The position numbers were made by a program, and so were the translations under genes. Positions 1 through 24,600 of a DNA stretch of 64,000 bases are shown here, one piece after another. The notes under the pieces are model-generated. The model was given only the letters and a program-made list of their open reading frames with translations, did not search any database and was not told the origin of the DNA. The stretch's first letter is position 1; every line of letters starts with the position of its first letter. Source of the stretch: Gonapodya prolifera JEL478 (taxonomy: Eukaryota > Monoblepharomycota > Monoblepharidomycetes > Monoblepharidales > Gonapodyaceae); contig KQ965739.1 in assembly GCA_001574975.1 (NCBI GenBank), positions 570,966 to 634,965 on the forward strand. Direction: 5' to 3'.

Positions 1-718
1 AGACGACCCGGGAGTGGTCTTTAAAGGGTCCTTGTCCTTGTCCTTGTCGTCGGCGGCGGCGAGGTCGGTGCTTCCTTCTCGACTGAGCGGGAACCCAGTG
101 GGACCGAGGAGGTGTCGCGCAATGATGTCGGCGTACACGTCCAGGACGCGGTCCTCGAATTCCTGCGCGGATTCGCCGCCATTGTCGCTGATGAACTCTT
201 CAAAGAGCTTGCCCTCCTCGTTGAGACGGGCTTTCGCTTCGGGCCATGCGAGGCCCGTGAGGTCGCCCAAGTTGCGCTCCCGCAGGCGGGGTTCATAGGT
301 GATGGAGCGTCCGGGGACAAGTTTGGTCAACTCAAGAGCGGTCTGTAAGCGTTTTGTATTGGCGGTCGACGAGAGTGGTTGGTCGTTGTTGGATCAACGT
401 GTGAAAGTGATTGTATGCAGCAAGACCAATAAGGACACAAGATACTTCATTGAACTGCAGTAATAATTGACGCACCTGCTTCGTCTGCCAAGCATCACTG
501 CAGTACACGGCGTCCCACTCCGTCTTCTTGAGCCTCTGGGATACGAGCGCTGCCTGCTTTATCCCGCGGTGCGAGAGCTGATGCTCGGACTGGCCGACGA
601 GCGTTCGCGGGCGGCACGAGGATACGCCCGTATCGGCGCTTGTGGGAGTGGGAAGAGACGAGTCAGCAGAGAGACAGCGCACGGCTTGCACTCTATCCCG
701 CCGCCCAATCGCTGCCAT
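1..718 (-). CDS. Histidine phosphatase superfamily (phosphoglycerate mutase-like), partial
   Basis: The protein is cut by the left window edge. Two exons can be read on the minus strand: about 590 down to 476, then an intron 475-343, then 342 to 1. The first carries GQSEHQLSHRGIKQAALV and EWDAVYCSD. The second starts TALELTKLVPGR and contains LRERNLGDLTGLAWPEA, the ERNxG segment typical of this superfamily (cofactor-dependent mutases, TIGAR and F26BPase-like phosphatases). The catalytic Arg-His-Gly normally precedes the GQSE-type segment, but the frame reads TLVGQSE, and no RHG is found in any frame back to about 1018. Either a small upstream exon splices in at a CAG just before SEHQ, or the site is lost. 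The ATG at 718 is one possible start. Family call fairly safe; substrate unknown. Confidence 0.6.
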
Positions 719-1018
719 CCACTCACTGCTTGACAACGGTGACAGCCAACACAACGTTTCCTCTCCGGTACTGGAGCGGCGCAGACTCTGGAAGCTGCAG
801 GCGAGGGGGCGACTGCGCAGACATTAAGGATGGACGGTAATCGTGTAGGGAATCGAATGCAACCGGCTGTTGCAATGGTGTAACTGTTGCGAACTCTTTG
901 TTGTTTTCTGGGACGATCGGTGCGAAGTTATCTTCGCACCCTTCGCACACCTGGTCTGACCCCGCAACACTCCTCAAAACTATTCTCATAAATACATTAC
1001 TACACATGACTCCGTTTG

Positions 1019-3463
1019 TCACGTTCGTGGCCGCTTCGTGGTCCCGCCTACGGTCCCCTCGCCAACACGTCGCGTCCCCGTTCGCCCACCCGCCCCACCT
1101 TCGTCGCTGTCCGAGGAGACAACAACCGCATCTTGGCTCACGACAAACGCACGCCGCGCAGCATCGCGTTTCGCTCGTTCGTTTTTTGCCGACGTGTGCA
1201 TGTCTCCCCTTGACGCATCCCATGATACAGACACGCTGGGTGCACCGTCAAGTGCAAGTGCAGGACTCATCACACCTCCCCGCCGCGTACCATCACCTCC
1301 CACGTCGTCCTCCGCACCCCCTTGCTGCTCCCACCCGAAATCCCACCCCGTATCGCCCCCATCCCACTCCCACGAATCCAACTCTGCCCACTCCTCCGCC
1401 GGTGGATCAGACCCAAAGTCCACACCAGGAGGTGCACGAGTGTTGTGTGAACCGGCCGGGTCATCTGCACGTGGATTCACTGGTCGACGACTAGCCCCAT
1501 TTCCTACTGAAGCGACCAGTCCATCCAACGCCGCGAAATCCATTTCTTCCATGTCACCCAGGTCGTCGTCAAAGTCATCCATGTCATCAAAGTCATCAAC
1601 CGTCTGCCCATCACCATTCCACGAGGCTGTGGCTGTGGCGTCTCTACTCGGCCCAGCGCCCACTGCACCCCATCCACCCGATCCCACTGCCGTCCTTCCT
1701 GAATCGCTCCCCTGCCACGGACCCGGTATGGCCCCGCTCGCACTCGCATCCATCCCAACCGCCGTTCGTCCAGAAGAGTCACCCCACGTCCCTCCAGCCG
1801 CGTTCGTGCCGCCGTGACCAGCACCACTCGTGGTAGTATGTGCGCCTTGTCCAGCGCCTGTGCCTACCACATGCGCACCCGCTTGTCCCGCGCCTGTGCC
1901 TGCCGCACCCGCTCGCGCACCCACCAACCCGTCCACCACCGCCCACACTTCCGGCGCAGAAAGCACCGCATCAAGCGAATCGTCCTCGTCGAAATCATAA
2001 TCACAGTCGCCCGGCGAAACTGGCCTCGGCGGCGGCGGGGGAGCGTGTGGTGCAAGGCTTCCATGGAAAGGTCCGGGCCGAGGTCCAGCTGGTGCCCCTA
2101 TCCTGTTCCTACCGGGAACGACCCGCGCGGCCGGGGGCGGGGCGTGCATGCGTGCAGTTTGAGTGTGCGAAGGAGGAGGAGGAGGAGGCTGTGACGGCGG
2201 GTTCGAGGGCGCATTTTGGGTTTGGGAGGGAAAGGGCGCAAGTGGGGGCCTGGAGACGTGCATGCGGGAAGACAGTGACAGTTAGAACCGAAGTTTAAAG
2301 CATAAGGTTTTGCTGTACCGCTCGCTGTCCGCTTGACGTTTGAATGAAACCGTGTTCATGCGCCGTTCCCGACGGTTTTCTCTGTCCTGACACCACACAT
2401 CCACAAACGAGCATACGATACGAGCACGGTCCGTGCTCCGTGATCCTTCCCAACAATGCCCCCAATGTAATATCGACAACGCTCATAAACCCACACTCTC
2501 CCTCCCATCTTTCCCGCCAGGGACTCCCTCAGCGCCTTGAGCGACTCCATGGCGACATCGTCTTCCGCCCCATGATCCACGGGTGATGACCCATCTCCGA
2601 GGACGGTGACCGCGGCAGGACGAAGCAAGAGGATTCCGCGGCGGACAGGGGTGGAGGTGAGTATGAGCTGGATGAGCGGGGGAGGGGAGGCATAGTGCCG
2701 GGAATTGAATGGTGAAGTGATGCCTTTGTGGGGGACTGGAGCGGGACGGACAAACGCGTGGGAACAACACAATGTGCCGCCTGCCGCCCACTGCACACAC
2801 ACCACAGCTCCGTCTTGTTTGAGCACACATGCGCACACGAACCTTGCACCCTTTCCTCGTCCACGCGGACAAATTCTGCACACGCTCCAGCTCGACGGCG
2901 TCGACCGTAGTGTGTCCGTCCGTCAGGGTGAGCCGCAGCGTGCCCCGTGGAAGAGCAATGGGCTCTCGCGGATCAAGTTGGCGCGGTGCAGTCGGCGGTG
3001 CCTGAGCTCGTTGTGTCTGAGTCTGGGTCTGCGTCCCACGCACGTCCCCGCGCTGCCCGTCCCCGTACTCGCCGTCGTCGCCCTCGCCGTCCAGAACGTC
3101 CACTCTGGGCAGTCCCCCGAACCTCCGTCGCTCAATCTCCTCGTCCACGGCTCTGAGTTGGGACTGCAGCGAGTGCCCGATCTCCGTGACGTCCACCACC
3201 TGCAGCATGACACGTTCACGACCGGCCGGGAAGGTCAAGAGCCGCCCAGTCTCGAGCTCGGCACGTGCGGGTAACACGGGTTCACCAAATTCCGCCAAAT
3301 CCCCACAAAGAAGCTGCGTGCGCACGAGATCCCGCAGACGGGCATCCTGAACGTCTGGTACTTCTTCACGAAGGAAGGCGACGCAGGCGGGGAGCCACTC
3401 AGGGACTACGCGAGCATCCAGCGACTTGAGAACGTCCTCGCACGAAGCGATACCGGGATCCAT
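1019..3463 (-). CDS. RMI1: RecQ-mediated genome instability protein 1 (RMI1) homologue
   Basis: Three exons join in frame: 3463-2843, 2667-2495 and 2249-1019, giving 674 aa. In the family, RMI1 holds the RecQ helicase-topoisomerase III complex together and helps dissolve double Holliday junctions in the nucleus. The N-terminus (about residues 1-60) is a small helical domain. MLQVVDVTEIGHSLQSQL is followed by an OB fold split by intron 1: GTLRLTLTDGHTTVDAVEL, then RRGILLLRPAAVTVLG. The last exon begins after a good branch site (CTAAC) and CAG. It is Pro/Gly-rich and disordered, with two acidic patches (YDFDEDDSLDAVL and DDFDDMDDFDDDLGDMEEMD) and Gly-Ala-Gly repeats. TDRD3 shares the N-terminal fold, but the absence of Tudor and UBA domains favours RMI1. 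No C-terminal second OB fold was recognised. Start is the first ATG of the exon. Confidence 0.8.
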
Positions 3464-3823
3464 TGTGGATGATGGGCAAGTCTGTCGACGTGAGGTAGAA
3501 CCGTGATCCACGAGCAACCGCCGCGGGCACGAAAAGGTGCGCAGAAGATGGGGATGATGCCAAACAGTGTAGCGGTGTTCAACTGCCGGGGAGACAAAAG
3601 GTCGGGTTTTCAAATCAATTCGTTTCCTTGAGTGGGTTTAGAAGTTGATGTGAAAGAACCACACATATCGTCCCCTCCCACAATTGTTGAAACAAATGTC
3701 AGTCGAACGTCATATAGAGAATGCCCGCGGGAGAAAGAGTAAAAAGAGATGGACATGCAATTATTACATTGAAACAAAAACCTCGTATATATAAAATGCC
3801 CCTTCTTTCCGGTATTCCTGGTC
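3464..3823. other. Intergenic region NDC80 3' end / RMI1 promoter
   Basis: This 360 bp gap lies between two minus-strand genes. It must hold the RMI1 promoter (right of 3463) and the NDC80 3' untranslated region. The part near 3780-3800 is AT-rich (tatatataaaat). No coding frame or RNA gene is supported. Confidence 0.4.
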
Positions 3824-6672
3824 CTACTTGCGTCCTCTCGATTTGGACCTCGGCGTCCTTGGTGTTTGCAGCTCCGGTAATTGTACGGAAACCCCCATCA
3901 TCGGAAACGCTCCCACACCCGTCCCTCCTTGCACAACAAGAGGTGCCCCCGGCATTGTGTCAGCGTACATGGCAGAACGCTCCGATTCCACATCGGCAAC
4001 AGACTCTACGGGATTTTCGACCCCACCGGCAGCAACCCGCAAAACGTCCTCGCCATCTGCTTTTACCGAGTCAATCAGCTGGTCCAGGCTACGTGACGTC
4101 CTATCACGATAGTCTATGATCGCTTCGACCAGGGCTGTCATTTTCCCGCCACTTTGAGCCAAAATTTCTTCTGAAAGTCGCTCGAGTTCCAGAAATCTTG
4201 GGAAGGCATTGCGAGCCAATGTGTCAGCTGCACGTAAATTCCACCAATGTGTGCCTCTTACTCACTCCACCATGAGGCTCTTCTTCCTTTCCTGAGCCTC
4301 TTTAAGTCCAGCGTTCAAGTCCGCTTTAAGCTTCTTCAGCGTTTCCTCCAACTTCTCTGCTTCTGCGTTTGCCGAGGCACTTTCCTCCTTGGAGACCTGG
4401 TGGTCGCACAGGACAGGTGCATCCAACGGAGCTTTGGGGTAAGTAAACCACCTGGTTGTCTCCTTCATGGGCACTTACTTCGAACTCCCGTGCATACTCG
4501 TCCGCAAGCCTCTTAAACTTCAGCTCCAGGTCGTGAACTTCGTCTCCTTTGACAGAGGTTTGCTCCAGAGTTCGGTCCCGCTTCTCCTGCAAAGCAAGCA
4601 CTTCTTCGTCCGCCTTTCGAATCCGCTCCTTCAATGCATCCATCAGCTTAAGCATCGCAGGCTAAGTGGAACAGTTGGTCGATATAATTGGTTTTCCAGA
4701 GTGGGGAAGGACAACATACCCGGACGACACCTTCCAAGTCAACACTTCCTACGTCTTCCTTAGATCGGGGCTGGGGATTCAGCTCGAGTTCATACCTTAC
4801 CCCAGCTGCATTTTTGGACGACGGATCCAGAAGATCCATTCGATCACACGCGGCATTGTAGTCTTGCACCTTTTTCTCCAACTACGGTCAACAGAAAGAG
4901 CCAAAATCATTGTATCGAAAGATGTGGTGAAAAGTCAAAGCAGAACGTACCCTATCAAACACTTTCTGGCCAGAAATCTCCGCGTCCCATGCCATTTGAG
5001 TCAGTTCCTCCCCTTTGGCTGTCGTCGCCTGAAACTGCCGCGCCAGACTGTCTTTCTCTGCGTTCATTCTGTCCACGTCCTCGGGTCGAATTTCTTGGGC
5101 ATCCACAATTGCCTGAACCCGTGTCCTTTCAGCAATAAGATTGGCGAGTTCATCCTCTGCGTCGACCAATGGAAAACGTTCCAGAAAGTCGGAAAAGGTT
5201 TTCGGGTGAGAGTACATACCTTTAGTTTTAGTTTCCAAAATCGACGCTTGAAGTGCCTCCCTTTCCGCAGCCAATTTCTTTTCTTGGTGCTGGTTGTAGA
5301 TGCTGTATTTGCCAATATCGACCTGCAGTGCATTCCCTTCAACTTGTAATTCGGCCAGCGGTTCCTACATCAACCACCATCAATTATTATTTCTCACAAA
5401 GAGGTTTCTGAAAAATTAGTTGACTCACCGCTCCATCTCCAAGCCTTGCAAGCGCTGTTTCGAAATCTTCCGACTGCTTTTGTAAACGTTCGATGTCTCG
5501 CAACACCGCCCCATTCCTCCTGTCTAGTTCAAAGAAGTCCAACACCAGATCGTAGCAAATTTAACCAAAGATGAGTCACTTACCAAAGAAGTCGGAAAAA
5601 TCTTGGTCCATTGGCTCAAAGTTGTCCCCCCCTGCGAGGAATACATCGTACGCCCGCAAGACATAATCAAAGAATGTCCGTTCGCTCATCACGGCGGGAT
5701 CCTGTGCGGTGCCGGAATCGAGAAGATCAGGTGGTTGCTGAAGGGGGTCTACATGTTCAGACGCCTAGCAAGGAAACGATGTCATCATTGGACAAAAGCG
5801 GATCCGTGTTGTAAATGATACCGACTAATGCAAGTTCGACCATCCACATCAAGATACCAAGGCAGGTTGGCCACGAATGCATGGATCCGACAGATATCAT
5901 GTGCGACTTCGTGATTTGATCGGCGAAAGGGTACCTAGCAATGCGGGTCTTTTAGCATTCATCGGTTTGATCGGTTGGAAGGCTTTCAAACAAACTTCAG
6001 ACTCTTCATGATCAGAGGAACTTCTTCCTCGAACTTTTTCGTCGGCGTGAACTCAAAGTGCGGGTCAATCATTTCGAGTATATGACGAAAAATGTTTTGA
6101 AAATCCTTCTGGCTGGGGGATTGAAGTTGTTTTTGGGAGATTGGGTGGGGGTATCCGGTAGTCAGGAGGAAATTGAGAAGTTGTTTAACGGAGGCCGACT
6201 GCCAGGCCTTATCCCGAAGATTTCTTGGGTCTTTGGTGAGTTGGGGACCGGCTGTGGGAAGCAGTGACTGGCGAGAGGCGAGAGAGGATGAGCGTCTTGA
6301 GCGAGCAAGGAAATCACAGTGAGTTCCAAAGAATCCAAGGTCCAAAGCACGATAAAATTCGATGAATTCCGACATGATACATTTTAAATACTGGTTAGAA
6401 ATGGAAAACGTGGCCCACAGAAACATCGAACCGAACCTGGAGTTTCCTGCGAACGAGCCGGTTTGCCGACCACCAGCCATCCCTCCCTGAGCGATCTGTC
6501 CTCCTGATGTTTGCCTACTTCCCGCGATCGACATTTGGGCGAATTGGTCGGCAAGGCCGCCAACGCCGCCCAGTCCGGATGGACGTAGGTTTGTAGCCGT
6601 AGAAGCGCGTAGAGGGCCAGCCATCGATAGACGGCCCTGCGGCATTGAGAATCGTGCGTTCGATTGGGACAT
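3824..6672 (-). CDS. NDC80: Kinetochore protein NDC80 (HEC1)
   Basis: NDC80 is the large subunit of the NDC80 complex and couples kinetochores to spindle microtubules. About nine exons can be followed. The start at 6672 (MSQSNARFSMPQGRLSM) opens a basic, disordered N-terminal tail. The calponin-homology domain follows: DPRNLRDKAWQSASVKQLL, GYPHPISQKQLQSPSQKDF, FEFTPTKKFEEEVPLIMK, then after an intron YPFADQITKSHMISVGSMH and SWPTCLGILMWMVEL. The remaining exons, from about 5800 leftward, are long coiled coil ending at 3824. The CH domain and the order of blocks match the family closely. The last exon adds a Gly/Pro-rich basic tail (TPRTPRSKSRGRK). Exons are short and introns are 60-140 bp. Identification is secure; exact junctions are partly inferred. 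Confidence 0.92.
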
Positions 6673-6829
6673 CACGGGTTGTTTCACGAAGGAATCGTGG
6701 TTTGGAATGTCCGCATCTGGCACTATTTGGTATGTGCACGATCCCTCTACACACAGCATGAATACAACAATCAATCATGCCATACCAAAAACGGTACACG
6801 CGGAGTAATAAGCGTGAATTCAATGATTT

Positions 6830-8739
6830 TCAAAGAAAGTAGCCATTTGTCCCCCCTCTTCCACCCGGTCGCTCCTTATTTTCGACCGCATCAAATATAG
6901 TAAACGATTTCTCGTCCACTGACAGGGCTTCATCAACCCTCATCACAGCTGCGACATTGCCACAACGGTAGCAGTAGTTGGGAGCACTCCAGACAGTCAC
7001 CAAGTTCTCAGAGGGAAACATGAATTTGTATCCCTCTTGCACCAACTGGTGCGCTCGTGCAATGAGGGTCAGGTCGTTCACCCGGTTGAACTTTATTTGC
7101 CGAATCGAAATGAGAGAGAGGCAAACGGCAAAGGGAGGTGGACCTACAGTACCTCTGCTGTTACTTGACTCCCGAATAACCACCCTGCCCCTCGCGGACT
7201 GACAGCCCATGTGTCAATGTCATCCGGGTCCGACCACATCAAATCTGCAAAAAAAAAGTTAAGAAAAAGCGATACACAGTCTGGCAGCAGTACATACCAC
7301 AGAAAGCACCCTCATGCGGAATTTCTTGACACCTTTGGACGGTTCGAATCTGGTCCAATGTCCTCACGTCAGGGGAAAGTCCCCCATGCACACAAAGCAC
7401 CCTTCCGTCCACGATCTAAAAACGTGGTTGTTGAAGCGGATGATATCGAGTAGTAGAAGAGGTCAGAATAATTGTAGAATGAACCAGTTCCAGACGGACT
7501 CACGGCAGCAAGCGTGAGGTAGTCAAACACCGCACAGCAATACTTCCACACGTTTGCATTGCCATACTTTTGCTGGCATTCATCTGCGTCAAGGGGGAAG
7601 GATATTTGATTAGATAGGTAGTGGAAGAACCACATCCACTGCGGACATCATGTCCGTCACAAGTCCATCCCGCTGCAGGTAAGCCTATTTGTTGCTCACG
7701 GTGCCTTTCAAAAGTGCGCCGCAGTTCAAGTCGGACCATGTTCTTGTTCACAACTCCTGGTGTGTTCCGATTTGTTCTGTTCTCACCATAAAACCCGTAC
7801 ACCTGCGTGATCTGTCTGCTTTCATGATTACCCCTCAATAATGTGATTTTATCCGGATATCTGGTCAACAGCAGGACAGGGCTTGGTGAAAAGAAATGAG
7901 GCACTGAAACTGGACTTGTCACGCACCGTGCTTTTAGCGCCATTAGAAGTGTGAATGTTTCGAGACTGTAGTAGCCACGGTCCACAAAGTCCCCCTAGCG
8001 ACAACGCGAACAGGGTCGGGGATTGATTTTAGTGTAGTTTGGAACCGTATCGACATGTCATCATCCTTTCCAACAGAACCAGCCTGCCCTGTAATACCCC
8101 ATCTTAATCCAACTATAAGCGCCATATCCCGCTCAAAATTAAGCGCAGGGCTCCGAGATATCGTGGCTCGAAAACAACAGTTATGCAGTCGTCGTGTGGC
8201 ATCGCTATGCCTCACCAAGAGATGAAGACCCAATCACGACATCCCGTCTGCTCCAATACACTTCTCTCCAACGTCAATCGTTAAGAAATCACCTCATCAG
8301 CCGGCGAAACACCACCGTCGCAACGAGTAAAGGAGGATTGTAGTTGTCCTTCCTCCCCTGCTCCCACAATGCAATCCTCACCATGAATATGTATCGCGTT
8401 GACGGTATCTCTCCAGCAACTCGAAACAGTTCCATCAGCTTCCGACAAAAGAGAGTGGGACCCATGAAAGCCAAGGCGATCGGAGGGATGGGATCAGACG
8501 TCTCTCGAAACACGGAACAAGCCCCGAGTCCAGTGAATCGGCCATCTCTTCCTCTTACCCACGTCCCAAAATTGTCCGTGAATGTCCCCGCAAACCGTGA
8601 CAGGGCTCTGCACAGGTTGAACATTTGACTCCTCGATGAGCAGCTCTTTGACGGTCTCACAAAGCATCTTCATCTCGTGCTCGGTTAGCGCTTGGCACTT
8701 TCGGATGCGTGATAGCCATTGGTCCGGGTTGGTCGACAT
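6830..8739 (-). CDS. Serine/threonine protein phosphatase PP6/Sit4-type catalytic subunit
   Basis: A PPP-family metallophosphatase in at least six exons. Start ATG at 8739 ([16 protein letters not shown]). Motifs in order: [20 protein letters not shown] (metal-binding GDxHG), [17 protein letters not shown] formed across an intron (GDxxDR), [20 protein letters not shown] (GNHE), [19 protein letters not shown], a [14 protein letters not shown] block and [15 protein letters not shown]. It ends in the conserved YFL tail. The residues around [20 protein letters not shown] and EGYKFMF fit PP6/Sit4 better than PP2A, PP4 or Ppg1. In fungi Sit4 acts in G1 progression and TOR signalling with SAP-type subunits. 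Exon 1 ends at GAC|GTGGGT and rejoins as FWDLMELFRV, confirming phase. Length is near the family norm of about 305 aa. Confidence 0.9.
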
Positions 8740-16479: not shown

Positions 16480-17516
16480 CTATCTACCTACATTTGCCCT
16501 TGCGTCACACAGCTTCCTCTCACCAGCCCCACCCCACATCTCCTCGCCTAGATCTAAGCTCTCGGCGAATAAATTCGGGTGAAAATCCAACTCCTCCGCC
16601 TGCAGCCTCGATTCGTCACTGATGACTGGCATTCTTCTGTTGTCCTCGGTTCTTAAAACTGGCGTCTGTGTCCCGCCAACATCGCTACTTTCCTCGTCCA
16701 CCCTACTTGTGTCCCTGCGCGGTTCCTCAATCCTCTCCTTCTTCACTTCTCTGTGGAGAACCACCTCGTCGACTACTGTGGGCGGCTGCAAGTTCATCGG
16801 AACGGAGACGGTCAGGGATCTCCCACAAATCATAATCTGCAGCCTCCCAGCTCCGTTTGGACTCATTCCGCGGCCAGCCTTCGTCTCCGGGCGAGATTTG
16901 GTCAACCCTGACCGGGCGCGCTTCCGGGGGCGTTCGGCATGTGCAGACAAGTCCACGTTGGCATCAGCTGTGTCCGCTTGGTTTGGTTCCACTACTGCGG
17001 TAATGACAGCTGCGGTAGCGGGTTGGACTGGAGGAGCGGGCCCCAGGTTGGTCTCTTTATGGTCGGGTTCGGGGTTTGCGTTTGGTTGATGATGAAGGAT
17101 AGACTGTGATGCGCTGGCGAGGTAATGAGGAGAGTTGGGATCTGAGTAATGCGGAGAAGTCAGAGATGGATGGCATGTACCTCGGCACTTTGCGGTGAAC
17201 GAGAAGTAATTACATTCGGGGAGTGTAGGTAGTTTTGCGTGCAGAGTGCCCGCCAGAAGTTGGTGCACGGGATGATTACGCCCGAGAACGCCCGTTGTGT
17301 AGGTGGCGTGGCGTCAGCGGGAGCGGTATCAAGTACAGGAGTAGTTTCACGGGAAAGCGGGGCAAAGACGGGCGACGGAGGACTGAAAGGATGGGGTCTT
17401 GGGCGTGTTGCAATGGAGGAGGGTCTGCTCCTTGCGACGTGTCTGGTGGAGTACTTCGAAGGTGTATTGCGACGGATACGTATCAAGATTGCCCATAGCG
17501 GGGAGTCTTGAGTCAT
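16480..17516 (-). CDS. Hypothetical protein, unrecognised, disordered/basic
   Basis: Two exons, 17516-17181 and 17103-16480, join in frame across a 77 bp intron (GTACAT..ACAG) and give 319 aa. Not recognised. The N-terminal half is rich in Pro, Arg, Ser and Thr. The second exon has a basic, nuclear-signal-like run (ERPRKRARSGLTKSRPETK), then a more ordered block (GRLQIMICGRSLTVSVPMNL) and an acidic/charged C-terminus (EVVLHREVKKERIEEPRRD, EELDFHPNLFAESLDLGEEM). The basic run suggests a nuclear protein, which is inference only. It is divergent from the Fanzor relic. Upstream in-frame codons could extend the N-terminus. Confidence 0.55.
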
Positions 17517-17824
17517 GGAATCAGAAATAAACGACATTAGAATTCTGGATCGTGTTTCTGATGCAAGACATATCAATGTTGTGCTTCTGGGGTGTCACAC
17601 AGGTATGTCCGTTTCACGTGACTCCGCGTCCAGCCCACGAAACGGGCGCGTTTTTTCCAGTTTACGCAGAGCGGGGCGGAAGTTTTTCAGCCAATGACAC
17701 GTGTTTTCGTAATGAGCAGAAAGCATCCGGTGCTGCATCCCGTTTCGTAAACAGACTCCGCGTCTTGTCTCATCTGCACGCTGAATCTGCTTCCGACTGC
17801 ACACGCTAACCGCGCTCATCGCCC

Positions 17825-20800
17825 ATGCATGCCTCATCGCGAACTGGCAAACGGTGTCGCGACGACGGCAAGGATGACCCACAACGTGCCTGCTGTGGCC
17901 TAACCCTGACACCCGATCTGATCGTCAGAAATACCAATCCACCGTTCGCGGCCCCCCAATCGAACGCGTTTGGTGCGCGTGAGTCGCTATTTTCTCTTTC
18001 TCTTTTCTCGACATCGGGTACTCACGTCGTTATGGAATCTTCTTCATAGTACCCGCTGTATCACAATGGCAGCCACCGCATGCCAGCTTACTGCCCGTAC
18101 AACAGCAGCAGCAGCAGCTCCTACTCCCTCATCCTCATGAACCATGGCAACCGCATCTTGTGGAGCCGACTTGTCCGTCCACCACCCCCTCCCGGTCTCC
18201 TCCCTCCCCGACCGACGTTCGTGCCGACTGACGCGACCAGGCACACCACTGGCCTGGACATCGGTGATTCGAGAGTGTTTTCGCACTCATCTTTGCGATA
18301 TCGGAAACTCATTCGGTTTTGGTTTCTTCCCAAAGTCAGCCCTCAACCATCATGGCGACCGTCTCCGGTCAGTTTGCCCCAGCAGGGGCCTCAACACCCG
18401 CAAGTGATGCCCCACGCGCCATTGCAGCACATTCGCTTGGCATCTCCGCCTCCGCTGAACCCGTCCGCCGAATATGGGGATCTACCAGATCGACCAGCAC
18501 CACCTCCTCCCATGCATCCACCGCCACCTCGACCCGGCACTCCCTATGTCCAGTCGCCATTGCCCCCATCGCCGACACTTATGCAGCCGGGTCACCCGCT
18601 AGTTCGTCCGCCCCCTCCTCCCGGACTCCGCTCCCGATTAGCGTTCGCTCCCGCGGACCCGACCCGCCAGATTACCGGCATTGATGTTGGTGCGTTCGCT
18701 TTCTTCTTTGCGACATCGGAGACTCATTTGATTTTGGTTTCTTCTCAAGGTCTAACCACCACCACCTTCGCACCAGGCGTCGGCCGTTTTTCCGTCTGGG
18801 CAGCAACACCACCACTTGCAAATGCTGCCGCACGCGCCTTCGCGACAGATTCTCGTGCCACTAAGGCGGCTACCAGGTCACACGCCACCACCACCCCCCA
18901 TAAATCCACCGCCACCTCAACCCGACTCTGCCTGCGTCCATCCGCCACTGCCACCGGTTCCAATACACCTGCCGCACGGCAATTTGCCAATCCTTTCGCC
19001 ATTACAACCTCCCCCGCAACCACGGCCTCCTCAGCCTCAACAAGGTGGCTACCACCACCAACCACTCTGGTACCAACTACCGCTCCTTCCCGATGTAGTG
19101 GCTCTTCGACCTTCCGGCGAGTTTTCAGTGTCAAAACTACTATGTGCAATTTTTGCTCATCAGTCTTTCACGTTTGCAGCGGTTGATTATAAGCCAGAAG
19201 CGCAGCCCGCTGAAGACGCTGTACTGCTACCCTGCTCCGAGAGAAACTCCCAGTCGCGTACTTGGCGCGCCCTGAAGCGCAGCATCTTGGACTTGACGAC
19301 TTGGCTACGTGGAACACTTCCGTGAAGATGGGTATCCACCCGGACGTCAAGGACACACAACTCATCCCCATCATCCGCGATGTGTCAAAACAATTTACAA
19401 TCTTGGCAACGAACTTTTGGCATCGTGTTACATCGTGCCCTTGCACGATGTTGTGGCGACATTGGTCAGAATGTATTGCCCACAACGTTACTCAACGAGC
19501 TGTACCTTATGGTGAAGAACTGTAGGCAGAGATCGCCTGTTGGGGATATCTACGACCACGCCAAGGACCTGTGGATGCAGCCAGTTAACGATGGTGCTCC
19601 TCCTGTGCCCCATAATATGGAATTGGAGGGAACACGTCAAACGACATGTCCCAGTTGAATCATGCGGTGGGCCAAGTGGATGGTGTGGATGGCGTGCCCA
19701 AATCTCTCCCCGTAACGACGCTTTCGGGTCTGCCTGGAGTTTGTGAAGCAGTTCGGTGGTGCGGCTGATGCCGAAGGCGAAGATTCTGACGGTGGTGCCA
19801 TTGCGGTCGGGAATCAGCAGGCGTAGTCGACTTCGCTCAAAACCTCCTTGAACACCTGTCCGAGGCTCTCCGAGGCATGCTGCCCCCCCACGACCACCTT
19901 CTTGCTCCAGAGGCAATATCGGACTATTGGATCGCCTACGTGCCGGCGTTGTGGTACATAATGCACGACGTATCCACCACGCATGACGTCCCCCATACTT
20001 TCTCCGAGGCCCAGAAGGGTCGCAAAGTTGCCAAGCCCGCATTCACACTGTGTCCAATACCCTCCCGCCATCGAAAGTACGTTGTTATTGATGGCCCGTA
20101 GCTCATTAGGCTGTACTGGTGTTACAACCGGGCAAACCCCAAGGCTCACAATGTGCCAACTGCGAGCGCTGCAAGTTCCTACAACAAGTACTTCCCGTGG
20201 ATGCAGCGCGCTCTCACCATGACCGCACTACCCTCAGATGGACCCATTTGGTCGCCCACGGGACGGTTCTCTACAGATGGTTTCGGCGCATGCGTGTCTC
20301 GGGTTAAGATGAAGGTCAGCGTCAACAGCCGTCATCACCCCAACCACGTGCCACCAGACGAGCACGGGAAGAAGCTATTTGTTCCCGTGGCGATTGCAGA
20401 CAGTGACATCGTTCTTGGGGTGGACGTGGGTAAGAGCGAGATCCACATCACAGGCGGGCGCGTGGATCACGACCAGCGGCGGCCCGACCATGACTTTGAG
20501 TTCCGTTTCGGGCAGTACTATGAGCGCGCCGGGATCAACAAGACGCGCAAGGCAGCGGAAGCCCTAAAGACCAGCCACCACGCCCTTCAGGCAGCAGTCC
20601 TCGGACCCCATACTGAAGACGGTCGACGAAACGGATTTGGACACGTAAGTCTCTAGTCTTTCTTATTTTTAACTTGAATCGTGACTGATGTATTGATATG
20701 TTTTTCTTAGAGACTTCACCTGGTTCCTTCAATGGAATGACCCACTCGTCGAATTCGACACCGACCTCACCGGTGACATCCACGCTAGATGGAGATGGCG

Positions 20801-21373
20801 TACGTGGTCAGGTAAGCAGCTGGAGGTTGACAGAGCGGCAAGGTATGCTCTTCCGTGGTTTTTGTTTTCCCTCATTCGGCAAGTCTCACCTTGTCCTTCT
20901 AGCTTTATCGCGGGACTCGGCCCTTTGCACCGCCAGCGCTCACTCGCGAAACGTGACCTTCACATTGCCTGGGGCAGCGCGAATGTCAACCGTATACAGT
21001 GCATCCCGGGCAAGTCAGAACCGGCAAAGAGGATTATGATGCGGCTCCAGCCGCTCTTGAAGGTTCTGCGCCCAACGCATGAATCTTACACGAGCTCTGG
21101 ATGTCACTCATGCATTCTCGATGCCCTTCCTGGCTTGCCCCGCCAGCTCCCAAAGGTTGTCTACCCCACCATCCCCAACACACGGCCCAGGGATGAAGGC
21201 TGGACAGCGACCATCCAGCCGTGGGAACTGCTGAAATGCGGTGCTTGCGGTGTTATCTGGAATCGTGATCGAGTTAGAGCGTTAAACATCCGCCTGATCT
21301 ACATCCATCAACACAGGAACGGGGGGAGCGGCCTTGGGTGTTCAGGAGGGCCGTTTTTGTTGCGGGTTTATGA
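17825..21373 (+). pseudogene. Decayed Fanzor (eukaryotic TnpB/OMEGA-type RNA-guided nuclease)
   Basis: Fanzors are RuvC nucleases related to transposon TnpB, known from fungi (including chytrids), protists and giant viruses. Diagnostic pieces, in order: a Pro/Gln-rich N-terminus; RPEAQHLGLDDLATWNTSV and helical recognition-type segments (19270-19620); SYNKYFPWMQRAL; RuvC-I DIVLGVDVGKSEIHITGG (Asp near 20423) followed by FGQYYERAGINKTRKAAEAL; then DLHIAWGSANVNRIQCIPGK; and a zinc finger with SYTSSGCHSC (21103), LKCGACG and RuvC-III IWNRDRVRALNIR (Asp near 21267). Introns at 20646-20710 and about 20842-20901 preserve phase. The frame is broken near 18100-18170, 18750-18830, 19240, 19420, 19650-19740, 19825 and 21325, and an in-frame TAG lies at 20099-20101 (..VVIDGP-stop-LIRLYW..). 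Flanking genes show no such breaks, so this is real decay rather than poor sequence. Start at 17825 is a guess. Confidence 0.8.
17973..18749 (+). repeat. Tandemly repeated exon-intron units in the Fanzor N-terminal region
   Basis: Three introns, 17973-18049, 18264-18335 and 18690-18749, share their sequence. Each begins GTG, contains a cgacatcgg..actca-like core (gcgatatcggaaactcatt, gcgacatcggagactcatt) and the last two end ttttggtttcttc..aag. All interrupt after the first base of a codon. The exons between them (18050-18263, 18336-18689, then from 18750) encode related Pro/Gln-rich segments, e.g. VRPPPPPGLLPPRPTFVP against VRPPPPPGLRSRLAFAP, and MPHAPLQ against MLPHAPSRQ. The middle exon is 354 nt (frame-keeping). 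The first is 214 nt and so breaks frame. This looks like duplication of a whole exon-plus-intron unit. Confidence 0.8.
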
Positions 21374-21622
21374 AATTGTGCGGGTGGTAGGTACACTCTC
21401 ACAGGTGTACTGTTCATTGCTCGCTCCAGGGTGAAACAGTTACGTTGTCAAAAACAGTTTTATTTTTGTATTTGTTCCCCTCCCACCCCCCTCCTCCCCC
21501 TCCCTCCTCCCCATGCAATTAAATATTTGCATCGCATGTGGAAGTCTATGGGGACATCACAGGGTGTTCCCGGTAGCATTAATTCATTAATAATGTAATA
21601 AGTTTACGTCTGCCCGTTCGTA
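21374..21622. other. 3' flank of the Fanzor relic, possible guide-RNA/element end
   Basis: This non-coding gap lies between the end of the Fanzor relic and the convergent androglobin-like gene. It holds a short inverted repeat (gtacac..gtgtac, about 21392-21411), a pyrimidine tract (21475-21510) and AT-rich sequence. In active Fanzor loci the guide (omega) RNA overlaps or follows the 3' end of the gene. I could not identify terminal inverted repeats or a defined RNA here. Confidence 0.35.
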
Positions 21623-24600
21623 TTATTTTTTCTTCTTCCCTTTCCCTCTTTCCTCTTCCATATCAGCCATGGCAGACGCTGCATCTGCAGCTAACCTCCC
21701 CAACTCCAACTTCCTCATATTCCACTCATCCACAGCCCTGCTGAGCGTCACAAGATATTCTTCTCTTCTCTTCAAGTCAAGTTCCCGAAGTTTGTCCACG
21801 TCAGATCGTTTATCTTCCAGTTTTTGAAACTGCAGTTGCTTCAGGAGCGCGCGACGCTCTCTGTCGTTCGGTCTTGCTTGAATCAAGGCCTCCCGATTTT
21901 GCTCAAAGCTTGTCATCCGTGCTCTTCTTTCTGATTCACGACGTGTTTTCTCCTCAGGCGTGAGGACCCGGGGTGACGCCCCATCCTCGGAATCCTGAGA
22001 TAAAGATTTCATTTTCATTCCCATAACTTGTTCCTTTGGTTGACGAACAGGAGACACGGGAGTGGAGTTTGGTCCGGTCACGTCAGTCTGTTTCAAGTAT
22101 TGCTCACGAATTTCGCGAGCCTTGGCAGCACGGCCTGGGTTCTTTTGCTCCCACGAATCCTTAATCATCTTATACCGGTCCTCCTGCTCCGTGTCTTTTG
22201 TCAGCGAAACTGACGCCCCTTCGGATGATACCAAGCGGAGCTTCCACGTTGGTTCACTGGTTGCTGCAACCGATGGTGCTGCGGCGTTTGTCGCAAGCGT
22301 GAGACCATCTGTTCCCTTTTTCTTTTTCGCAGAGCTTGCATTCTTAGTGTTTCTGGATGACGAGGGGCGCCCAGCATCCGAGGACACGTTGGAAGAAGAG
22401 GACGGAAATACTTTCGACCAGTCTGCAGATTCTACTGTTCCTTGAATTATATACTTGTGCTTATAAATATGCCGAGGTAAGAGTGTGAAAGCAATTTTTT
22501 AGGTGTTTAACACCCACCGGGGCTCTTGCGCCTACTGTTGATGGCGGAGACTTCACGTCTGTTTGGTTTGCTTTCACATCTTTCGCTCCTGATGCCGAAA
22601 CTGCACTGTTGGTCATCGGTTCGTCAACTCTCTGAAGTGTTGCTGCATAGATGGTCGCAACGCCTCGCCCCTTTGCACGATAAACCTCGATGTCGCCATC
22701 AAATATCTGAAGCTGAACAGATAAATTTTGGTGATCGAATATCAGATGGGCCGAGACGACGTTCTCTGTGGCATCTTTGACTTTCAATACGGATCTGTTG
22801 TGGGAGAGAGGTGAGTGAACAAACTGGCGTTTTCAAGTTTGGCTCTAACCTGAAAAGAATATTATGTCGATTCGGTGCAAAGGGTTCTTCGAAATCCTGT
22901 ATGGTAGGCTTGATGGCCAATTCCGCAGGTATGCGATCAAAGAGGCTGAAAAATGCAGGCTCGGCAATAAACCGAAGCTTCCACTTGCACGAGGGGCGAG
23001 CAACGGGGTATTTGCAATCGGCAAGAAGAGTGTATCCGTTCTACAAAATACAAAGAAGCGTTATCCATGACCTCAACCCAAAAGGCATCACGTCCTTACT
23101 TTGTTTGGAAAATATCGCCTTGCTTGCGCATTTTGAATTGTTTCGAATATCTCTTCTCCGCTATCATTATCCACCACTCGCAACGCAACTGCGTATTGCA
23201 ACGCCTCTGCCATACGGACAGAGGCAGAAAAAAAGACAGGCTGCGGTTGAGTGCAACGGAAAGAAAATCTGGGGAAGGCGTTCTTCGATAACAACCAGTC
23301 TGTAAATGCAAGCTGAGACTCAAACGACCTACTTAAACAAAACCGTCCAAGAACCATTCAGGCTCCCGGGCAGAGTCTCATCAACATCCTTAACTTTCAA
23401 TCCCAATTTCTCTTGAAGATATTTTGCTTCGTCATCGACCACAAAGTCTTCATTAGACGCGAGCGTGACACAATATGCTGTAGTGCAGTCGACGTGGATC
23501 TTGTAGACTACAGGCCTGACGTTGAAAACCATTCGCTTAGCAACAATCCTGCAGTAATCTTATGCGAAACGTACCCGGGAGGAACTTTGAACAGCCTGCA
23601 AGCTGTTCCACCAGTTGAAATTCTTAGCGCCGTCGACTCTCGGCTGGGTGCGCGCCAGTCGTATCGAGCCAGGTCCACCGAGCACAGTTGTCGAGCACGT
23701 GATCCGGTTCGGAAGACAGACGATATGCAAACAACCACAGCAGCTTCTCGCGTGTCATCCGGAACATCTAAAGTTGAATCGAAACAATGAATAGAGTCTC
23801 TCTCTGAGGCAAAGAGCACCGAACAACAAACAGGGTGACACCCACACAGCACTGGTGCTAGTTTTGGTGTCTCTTGAGGCTTTGCTGGATCTGGAATGTA
23901 CAATAACTGTTTTAGAAACCGGAAACTTGAAGGACTTTGCACAACTTCGAGGTGCCTAGGAGAACGAAGTCACACAAAGCAGCCGCAAGGCTCTGTAATC
24001 GCCTGAGACTAGCACTAACCGAAACACCCGACAAAATTCACTCCACGATATCCAATGATCTGAGCCATCCAGCACCGCTTCAGGAGGATCATCGGAAGAC
24101 TTTGGACGTAGTGAAGAAGGTGTGCGAAGTCGAACGTTGCTGTCCCGACTATAAGTCAACGAATGGGATTTACCACATCCATGAATTGACTGTTTACATT
24201 AATGCTCTGATCCCCTTTACTTACCAACATGCGAAGAAGGCTCTCACGCGTACAACTTTCCCAGCCGGACAAGATGCCGAAGTTGGGCTTCCATCGGGTG
24301 GTGTCGAGGTGGAACTAGGTGAAGGATTTTCGCGAACTTCGACAACTCGATATGGAAAAGCGAGAAGAGTGTCATTTGACGAAGGCAGCCGATCAGACAC
24401 TGGGTGAGGTCTCGATGTGGACGCTGAAGAAGATCCAGTGGTGTCCTTGAAGGCCCACACTGTCGCAAAACATGCACTACTGGGTATGCCTCCAGAGACT
24501 CCAGAGGATGCGCCGACCGGTGGTGCCACTTTCGCCCCTGTAGTGCCATCACTCTTTGCACCAGGTTTTCCCGCAAGAGCAAGCGTGCTTGCAATGGGCA

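Follow-up and report, generated by a model that had tools for sequence, protein, structure and literature searches.

The locus lies on the + strand of a 64-kb stretch of DNA (G000:C9:570966-634965, hereafter the window) from an assembly of 47.56 Mb and 207 contigs, and consists of a probable first exon, a proline-rich N-terminal region, a set of conserved N-terminal blocks, an exon carrying a RuvC-I motif, two introns flanking a short exon, a last exon and a 3' tail (Table 1). The landmarks listed in a preliminary description of this DNA are found in the order claimed and on this strand: VLGVDVGKSE, the FGQYYERAG...TRKAAEALK block in the same frame, CHSC, CGAC and NRD. The CHSC motif at 21102 and the CGAC motif at 21237 constitute a C4 zinc finger. 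The rearranged RuvC-II glutamate at 21081 was absent from the earlier feature list.

Table 1. Features of the locus, in window coordinates, with the observations that define them
Feature	Coordinates	Strand	Observations
Upstream stretch collinear with C120	17098..17795	+	blastn, 61.1 bits for 17098-17362 and 51.1 bits for 17619-17795; 150 dinucleotide shuffles reach 34.0 at most
Probable first exon	17825..17978	+	ATG 17825, basic GKRCRDD; end is the base before GTGAGT 17979, 3' limit inferred
Proline-rich N-terminal region	18050..19186	+	378 aa open frame; no Pfam family
N-terminal conserved blocks	19325..20098	+	19416-19823 matches C120, 142 residues, E 2e-35
RuvC-I exon	20102..20602	+	VLGVDVG, D codon 20423; FGQYYERAG block; 47% identity to C70, E 1e-45
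Intron 1	20645..20710	+	GT-AG, phase 2; same site in C120, C1, C70
Exon between introns (DFTWFLQWNDPLVEF...)	20711..20842	+	Within 52% match to C1
Intron 2	20843..20902	+	GT-AG, phase 2; same site in C120, C1, C70
Last exon	20903..21373	+	AWGSAN block, E 21081, CHSC 21102, CGAC 21237, NRD with D 21267
3' tail common to four copies	21374..21465	+	Homology ends there in C120, C1, C70

The earlier limits, 17825 and 21373, probably correspond to the ends of the former gene. The ATG at 17825-17827 opens first codons like those of a relative elsewhere in the genome, C120 (MHASSRTGKRCRDDGKD in the window and MLRASRGRKRCRDDDQE in C120; two short blocks in one frame and in the same order, E 0.003), and the TGA at 21371-21373 closes a Fanzor-like tail, GERPWVFRRAVFVAGL, that includes GERPWVFRR. 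Homology extends beyond both limits. DNA collinearity between the window and C120 runs, in pieces, from 17098 to 21386 by blastn, starting ~730 bp upstream of the ATG, and the 3' tail reaches ~21465 in the multiple alignment (21386 by blastn alone). The upstream stretch is either non-coding or a 5' part of the element. Within the proline-rich region, 18170-18567 and 18599-18955 form an internal duplication (63% alike), and 74 bp at 18178-18251 are 90.5% identical to C120. Each copy of the duplication contains a RuvC-I-like string with GT at its end (TGLDIG at 18248 and TGIDVG at 18674), a resemblance that is probably due to chance. The introns had been described as phase-keeping, which holds for the introns themselves, both phase 2 and at sites common to three relatives, but not for the surrounding reading frame, which shifts at ~20590-20601, before intron 1, and again at ~21310-21320.

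The gene is degenerate, as first described. Three in-frame stops fall within conserved blocks (19656, 19713 and 20099), a fourth, at 19824, lies at a frame change, and the frame shifts at least four times, near 19408-19422, 19797-19829, 20590-20601 and 21310-21320. The relative C1 is open in a single frame across the site of the second of these. A further frame change suspected near 19711 was rejected, since 19416-19823 is a single frame with two stops that gives the 142-residue match to C120. As the assembly reads, the full protein cannot be encoded by the window copy. A working Fanzor gene in which the breaks are assembly errors or unrecognized introns would account for the intact catalytic residues (D, E and D) and four intact zinc-finger cysteines, for the one frame change that falls on a run of six Gs and for the normal CpG content of the copy. 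Such a gene is very unlikely, given that the frame shifts at least four times and meets four stops inside ~2 kb, that the same assembly has long open frames elsewhere (759, 773 and 635 aa) and that three relatives, C120, C1 and C70, are broken as well.

Fanzor proteins are the eukaryotic kin of RNA-guided DNA cutters related to CRISPR-Cas12. With high confidence, on the reading of its sequence, 17825-21373 (+) can be assigned as a decayed Fanzor1-type gene, the dead copy of a small, old mobile element. The Fanzor layout proposed earlier is borne out by the comparison of the last exon with Guillardia theta Fanzor1 (GtFz1), by a profile search and by a published motif together with the rearranged glutamate. 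In the available text of Bao and Jurka (2013; PMC3627910), Fanzor and TnpB proteins are marked by the motif D-X(125,275)-[TS][TS]-X-X-[C4]-X(5,50)-RD. In the window, the distance from the D at 20423 to the TS at 21090 is 541 nt once the introns are removed, or ~180 residues with one frame change within, and the downstream part reads TSSGCHSC...CGAC-GVIWN-RD. The Fanzor RuvC-II glutamate is relocated to six residues before the zinc finger, according to the available parts of PMC10711439, and the window contains E-SYTSSG-CHSC at 21081. The pattern E-x2-[TS][TS]-x2-CxxC...C-x(2,3)-C...[NDH]RD has a single match, at 21081, in the six frames of the 64-kb window, and none in 200 mononucleotide-shuffled windows. 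The same parts of PMC10711439 give RuvC-I of Fanzors as near exclusively DPG, a typical rather than absolute feature. The window copy reads DVG and C120 has DPG; DPG is thus present in the family, and it is the window copy that departs from it.

Alignment of the last exon with the C-terminal fragment of GtFz1 gives a Smith-Waterman score of 71, compared with a shuffle mean of 30.6 and a maximum of 54 (0/500 as good). Two Fanzor2-like proteins of this genome (from C37 and C165) score at chance against GtFz1, with 226/500 and 163/500 shuffles as good. The RuvC-I piece of the window, taken alone, is also at chance level (157/500); its best alignment places VLGVDVGKSEI over LLGCDPGKRDI, and its link to Fanzor rests on the relatives.

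The comparison with Fanzor and TnpB profiles suggested in the preliminary description points the same way, with family scores below threshold. Profile A2, built from 10 pieces (two from the window, one from C37 and seven from the C114/C66/C102/C50 group described below, which dominates it), has GtFz1 as its top PDB match (E 2.2e-7), followed by a match at 0.32, and TnpB at 0.41; SpuFz1 is absent among its 13 PDB matches. Closeness to GtFz1 over TnpB is therefore seen in one profile search, and the last exon, in contrast to the two Fanzor2-like proteins, scores above all 500 shuffles against GtFz1. Pfam PF07282 (TNB) matches the last exon with E 1.5e-4 and 22.3 bits, under the 26.3 cut-off, which the relative C37 exceeds with 32 bits; the best E among the other window pieces in Pfam is 0.09 (seven pieces scanned in all), NCBIfam gives no match for two window pieces, and the RuvC-I piece alone has no match in Pfam or NCBIfam. 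A genome-wide TNB search returned 20 matches at 19 places, the window absent among them. A phmmer search of PDB with the last exon returned nothing up to E 1, and single-protein PDB searches returned nothing for C66 and no Fanzor for C37. Since the window falls short of the family cut-off, its assignment rests on the motifs, the last-exon comparison and the relatives. An unrelated RuvC or zinc-ribbon protein that resembles Fanzor by chance would fit the weak or absent single-sequence family matches; the chance of this is negligible with no shuffle in 500 as good as the last exon, a profile E of 2.2e-7, the rearranged glutamate in place and relatives that share the layout.

Protein searches with two window pieces recover eight other places in the genome: C70 (E 1e-45), C1 (5.4e-43), C37 (1.6e-32), C120 (6.8e-24), C143, C73, C7 and C83, the matches to C7 and C83 being weak and belonging, by inspection, to other Fanzor groups. 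Sixteen regions were fetched, and six (C70, C1, C37, C120, C143 and C73) were compared with the window at the DNA level. When two N-terminal pieces and the DNA of 17000-18400 are searched against the genome, C120 alone is recovered besides the window; by local tblastn, C1 is a further match, from ~19.65 kb onward. Intact copies with the same N-terminus, proposed earlier as something to look for, did not emerge: C120 and, in part, C1 were recovered, both broken. In the 3' half, C120, C1 and C70 are mutually 78-86% alike and 57-60% alike to the window. The window copy has its introns and one 3' end in common with these three relatives. The triad of D, E and D is kept in C120, spread over three frames, and the first D and the E are lost in C1 and C70. 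The family is already known, and the locus is one among several old, broken Fanzor copies in this genome; fungal Fanzor1, including Spizellomyces and Allomyces elements, has been in print since 2013 (available text of PMC3627910).

Several other Fanzor-like sequences were observed in the fetched regions. The window copy has a Fanzor1 relative at L031:4832-5800 (C37), open for 282 aa, that breaks off before RuvC-I directly beside an IS607-type element, as though the latter had truncated it; its missing half was not found with the window pieces in the fetched 9.9 kb. A second Fanzor1-like group comprises L038:3443-4882 (C114), L039:3282-4658 (C66), L043 (C102) and L042 (C50), with (A/G)MDPN at RuvC-I where visible and with frames that stay open for as much as 480 aa. 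Structure predictions for the C37 relative (282 aa, 8-row alignment) and for C114 (480 aa, 10-row alignment) had mean pLDDT values of 43.7 and 42.9, too poor to support a fold search. Among three pattern matches of a window piece to viral contigs, one apparent relative was rejected, as it consists of 24 residues (query 46-69) that are mostly translated intron 2; for C114, 39 pattern matches in viral contigs contained no relative. Finally, a 241-bp repeat, 93% identical between L029 (C70; reverse 4240-4480) and L034 (C73; reverse 4757-4997), adjoins the Fanzor remnant in both places, at differing points of the Fanzor sequence, and a portion of it (68% alike) is inverted ~0.6 kb off in C73.

Substitutions between copies retain a record of past selection. 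Between the window and C120, differences are concentrated at third codon positions (0.59, compared with 0.32 at first and 0.25 at second positions; p 1e-18). Between C1 and C70, the corresponding values for third, first and second positions are 0.16, 0.12 and 0.13 (p 0.22). These patterns indicate that the family was once selected as a protein and that C1 and C70 later decayed without constraint. The copies also differ in CpG content, with observed/expected ratios of 0.14 in C1, 0.24 in C70, 0.87 in C120 and 0.95 in both the window copy and the whole window. From C120 to C1, 53/115 CpG bases are changed, 46 of them by C>T or G>A, versus 82/423 other C/G bases, and from C120 to C70, 50/115 versus 81/422; from C120 to the window there is no CpG excess (41/115 versus 163/420). 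CpG was likely lost through cytosine methylation followed by deamination, and a RIP-like process is a possible alternative. Oddly, introns differ less between C120 and C1 or C70 (0.11 and 0.14) than third codon positions do (0.32 and 0.35), which may be explained by CpG loss mainly on coding sequence.

The depleted block of C70 is ~5 kb long and that of C1 at least 6 kb, each of them stopping at the shared Fanzor 3' end; the ratio is low in C73 too (0.14-0.54 across ~5 kb around the fragment). The blocks lie at L030:1-6212 (C1), L029 reverse ~700-5768 (C70) and L034 reverse ~2600-7600 (C73). Sampled stretches of the genome are otherwise mostly near 1, and the block edges in C1 and C70 are sharp. 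The depleted blocks are probable methylated transposon islands. Decay took two routes among these relatives: C1 and C70 lost CpG, and the reading frames of the window copy and C120 changed with CpG retained.

The survival of the triad in the window copy, set against the loss of the first D and the E from C1 and C70, and the lack of CpG decay are what would be expected of a domesticated fragment, one whose 3' half, with RuvC and zinc finger, or 3' RNA the host still transcribes and uses. A nuclease half or 3' RNA that is still active, for example against related elements, would explain both the surviving catalytic residues and the CpG sparing. However, the 3' half itself shifts frame at ~20590-20601 and ~21310-21320, and the triad is kept in the broken C120 also, which makes it weak evidence for domestication. 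We regard host use as highly improbable and favor a dead copy.

C120, C1 and C70 end at one place after GATTACGTCGTCAAACTT, which is exact in all three and present in a diverged version in the window, and the CpG depletion of C1 and C70 also stops at the end of the 3' tail. The end of 21374..21465 is therefore the probable right end of the element, and the tail, by analogy with characterized Fanzors, is a candidate guide-RNA scaffold. Extra matches to the 3' end pattern in C50 and C109, with two mismatches each, were dropped as being at chance level against one reversed-control match. RNA folds of the four 3' tails are not significantly above shuffles, with z values of -1.47 (window), 0.79, 0.75 and 0.48 and with 19, 160, 156 and 138 of 200 shuffles as good, and Rfam gives 0 matches at gathering score over 16500-22500. 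Pair counting for the window hairpin was discarded, the small alignment A3 putting the hairpin out of register.

Fanzor1-carrying transposons of Helitron, Mariner, Sola, MuDr or SPu-1 type are recognized by terminal repeats or a transposase gene. That the gene was formerly mobile, as the preliminary description had it, is supported by dispersed copies sharing one 3' end; neither a transposase nor an inverted repeat or target duplication came to light. Seven flanking frames were scanned and contained no transposase, and no recombinase adjoining the window copy was observed. The best inverted matches between end stretches score 7.0 in the window and 9.0 in C120, the 95% point of shuffles being 9.0 for both and the left end being approximate.

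How the element would have worked can be proposed by analogy with SpuFz1 and GtFz1, as characterized in the available parts of their descriptions. The element, ~4.4 kb in the window copy, would have had an intron-containing gene whose product joined a proline-rich N-terminal region and further conserved N-terminal blocks to a RuvC nuclease into which a zinc finger is inserted. Once loaded with an RNA transcribed from the element's own 3' end, whose guide part would extend beyond the right end, this protein would cut guide-matching DNA beside a short target motif. The conserved tail at 21374-21465 is positioned as such a scaffold would be. The guide RNA, the cutting and the mobility are all inferred in this scheme.

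Two IS607-type elements were also observed, at L035:2462-4430 (C165) and L031:5733-8009 (C37), each with a serine recombinase that carries a MerR-like helix-turn-helix and overlaps a TNB frame. The recombinases match NF033518 with E 3.8e-41 and 3.4e-42, above the cut-off, and the TNB frames are open for 635 and 759 aa. By reading, both elements appear to be of Fanzor2 type and intact-looking, with DPG, the rearranged glutamate and RD retained in each. Adjoining the Fanzor2-like element in L035, a single open frame at 4617-6935 (-) fuses a nicotinate phosphoribosyltransferase fragment to NB-ARC and TPR repeats (NLR-like).

What this locus contributes is a Fanzor1 subfamily with introns and a nuclease end resembling that of G. 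theta, in a genome where a second Fanzor1-like group and two seemingly intact IS607/Fanzor2-like elements are also present. The gain is in the natural history of these nucleases, with no new mechanism.

For Spizellomyces punctatus SPu-1, the available text on that element gives a single open reading frame, inverted repeats of 30-33 bp and, in the 2013 count, nine intact copies. The window subfamily, in contrast, has introns, no inverted repeat found and no intact copy found in the genome. The Fanzor2-like proteins of C37 and C165 share with Fanzor a PF07282 C-terminal domain, but their frames overlap that of an IS607-type serine recombinase, unlike the window copy. The window copy differs from GtFz1 in being broken, in having a proline-rich N-terminal region, in its DVG and in its third catalytic residue, which is D in the window and N in GtFz1 (available text of PMC11423790). 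Over the alignable C-terminal stretch of ~300 residues, GtFz1 (PDB 9CER) and the family otherwise present the same elements in the same order: RuvC-I, a GWG/AWG block, the rearranged glutamate in EHYTS/ESYTS, a C4 finger and WNR(D/N).
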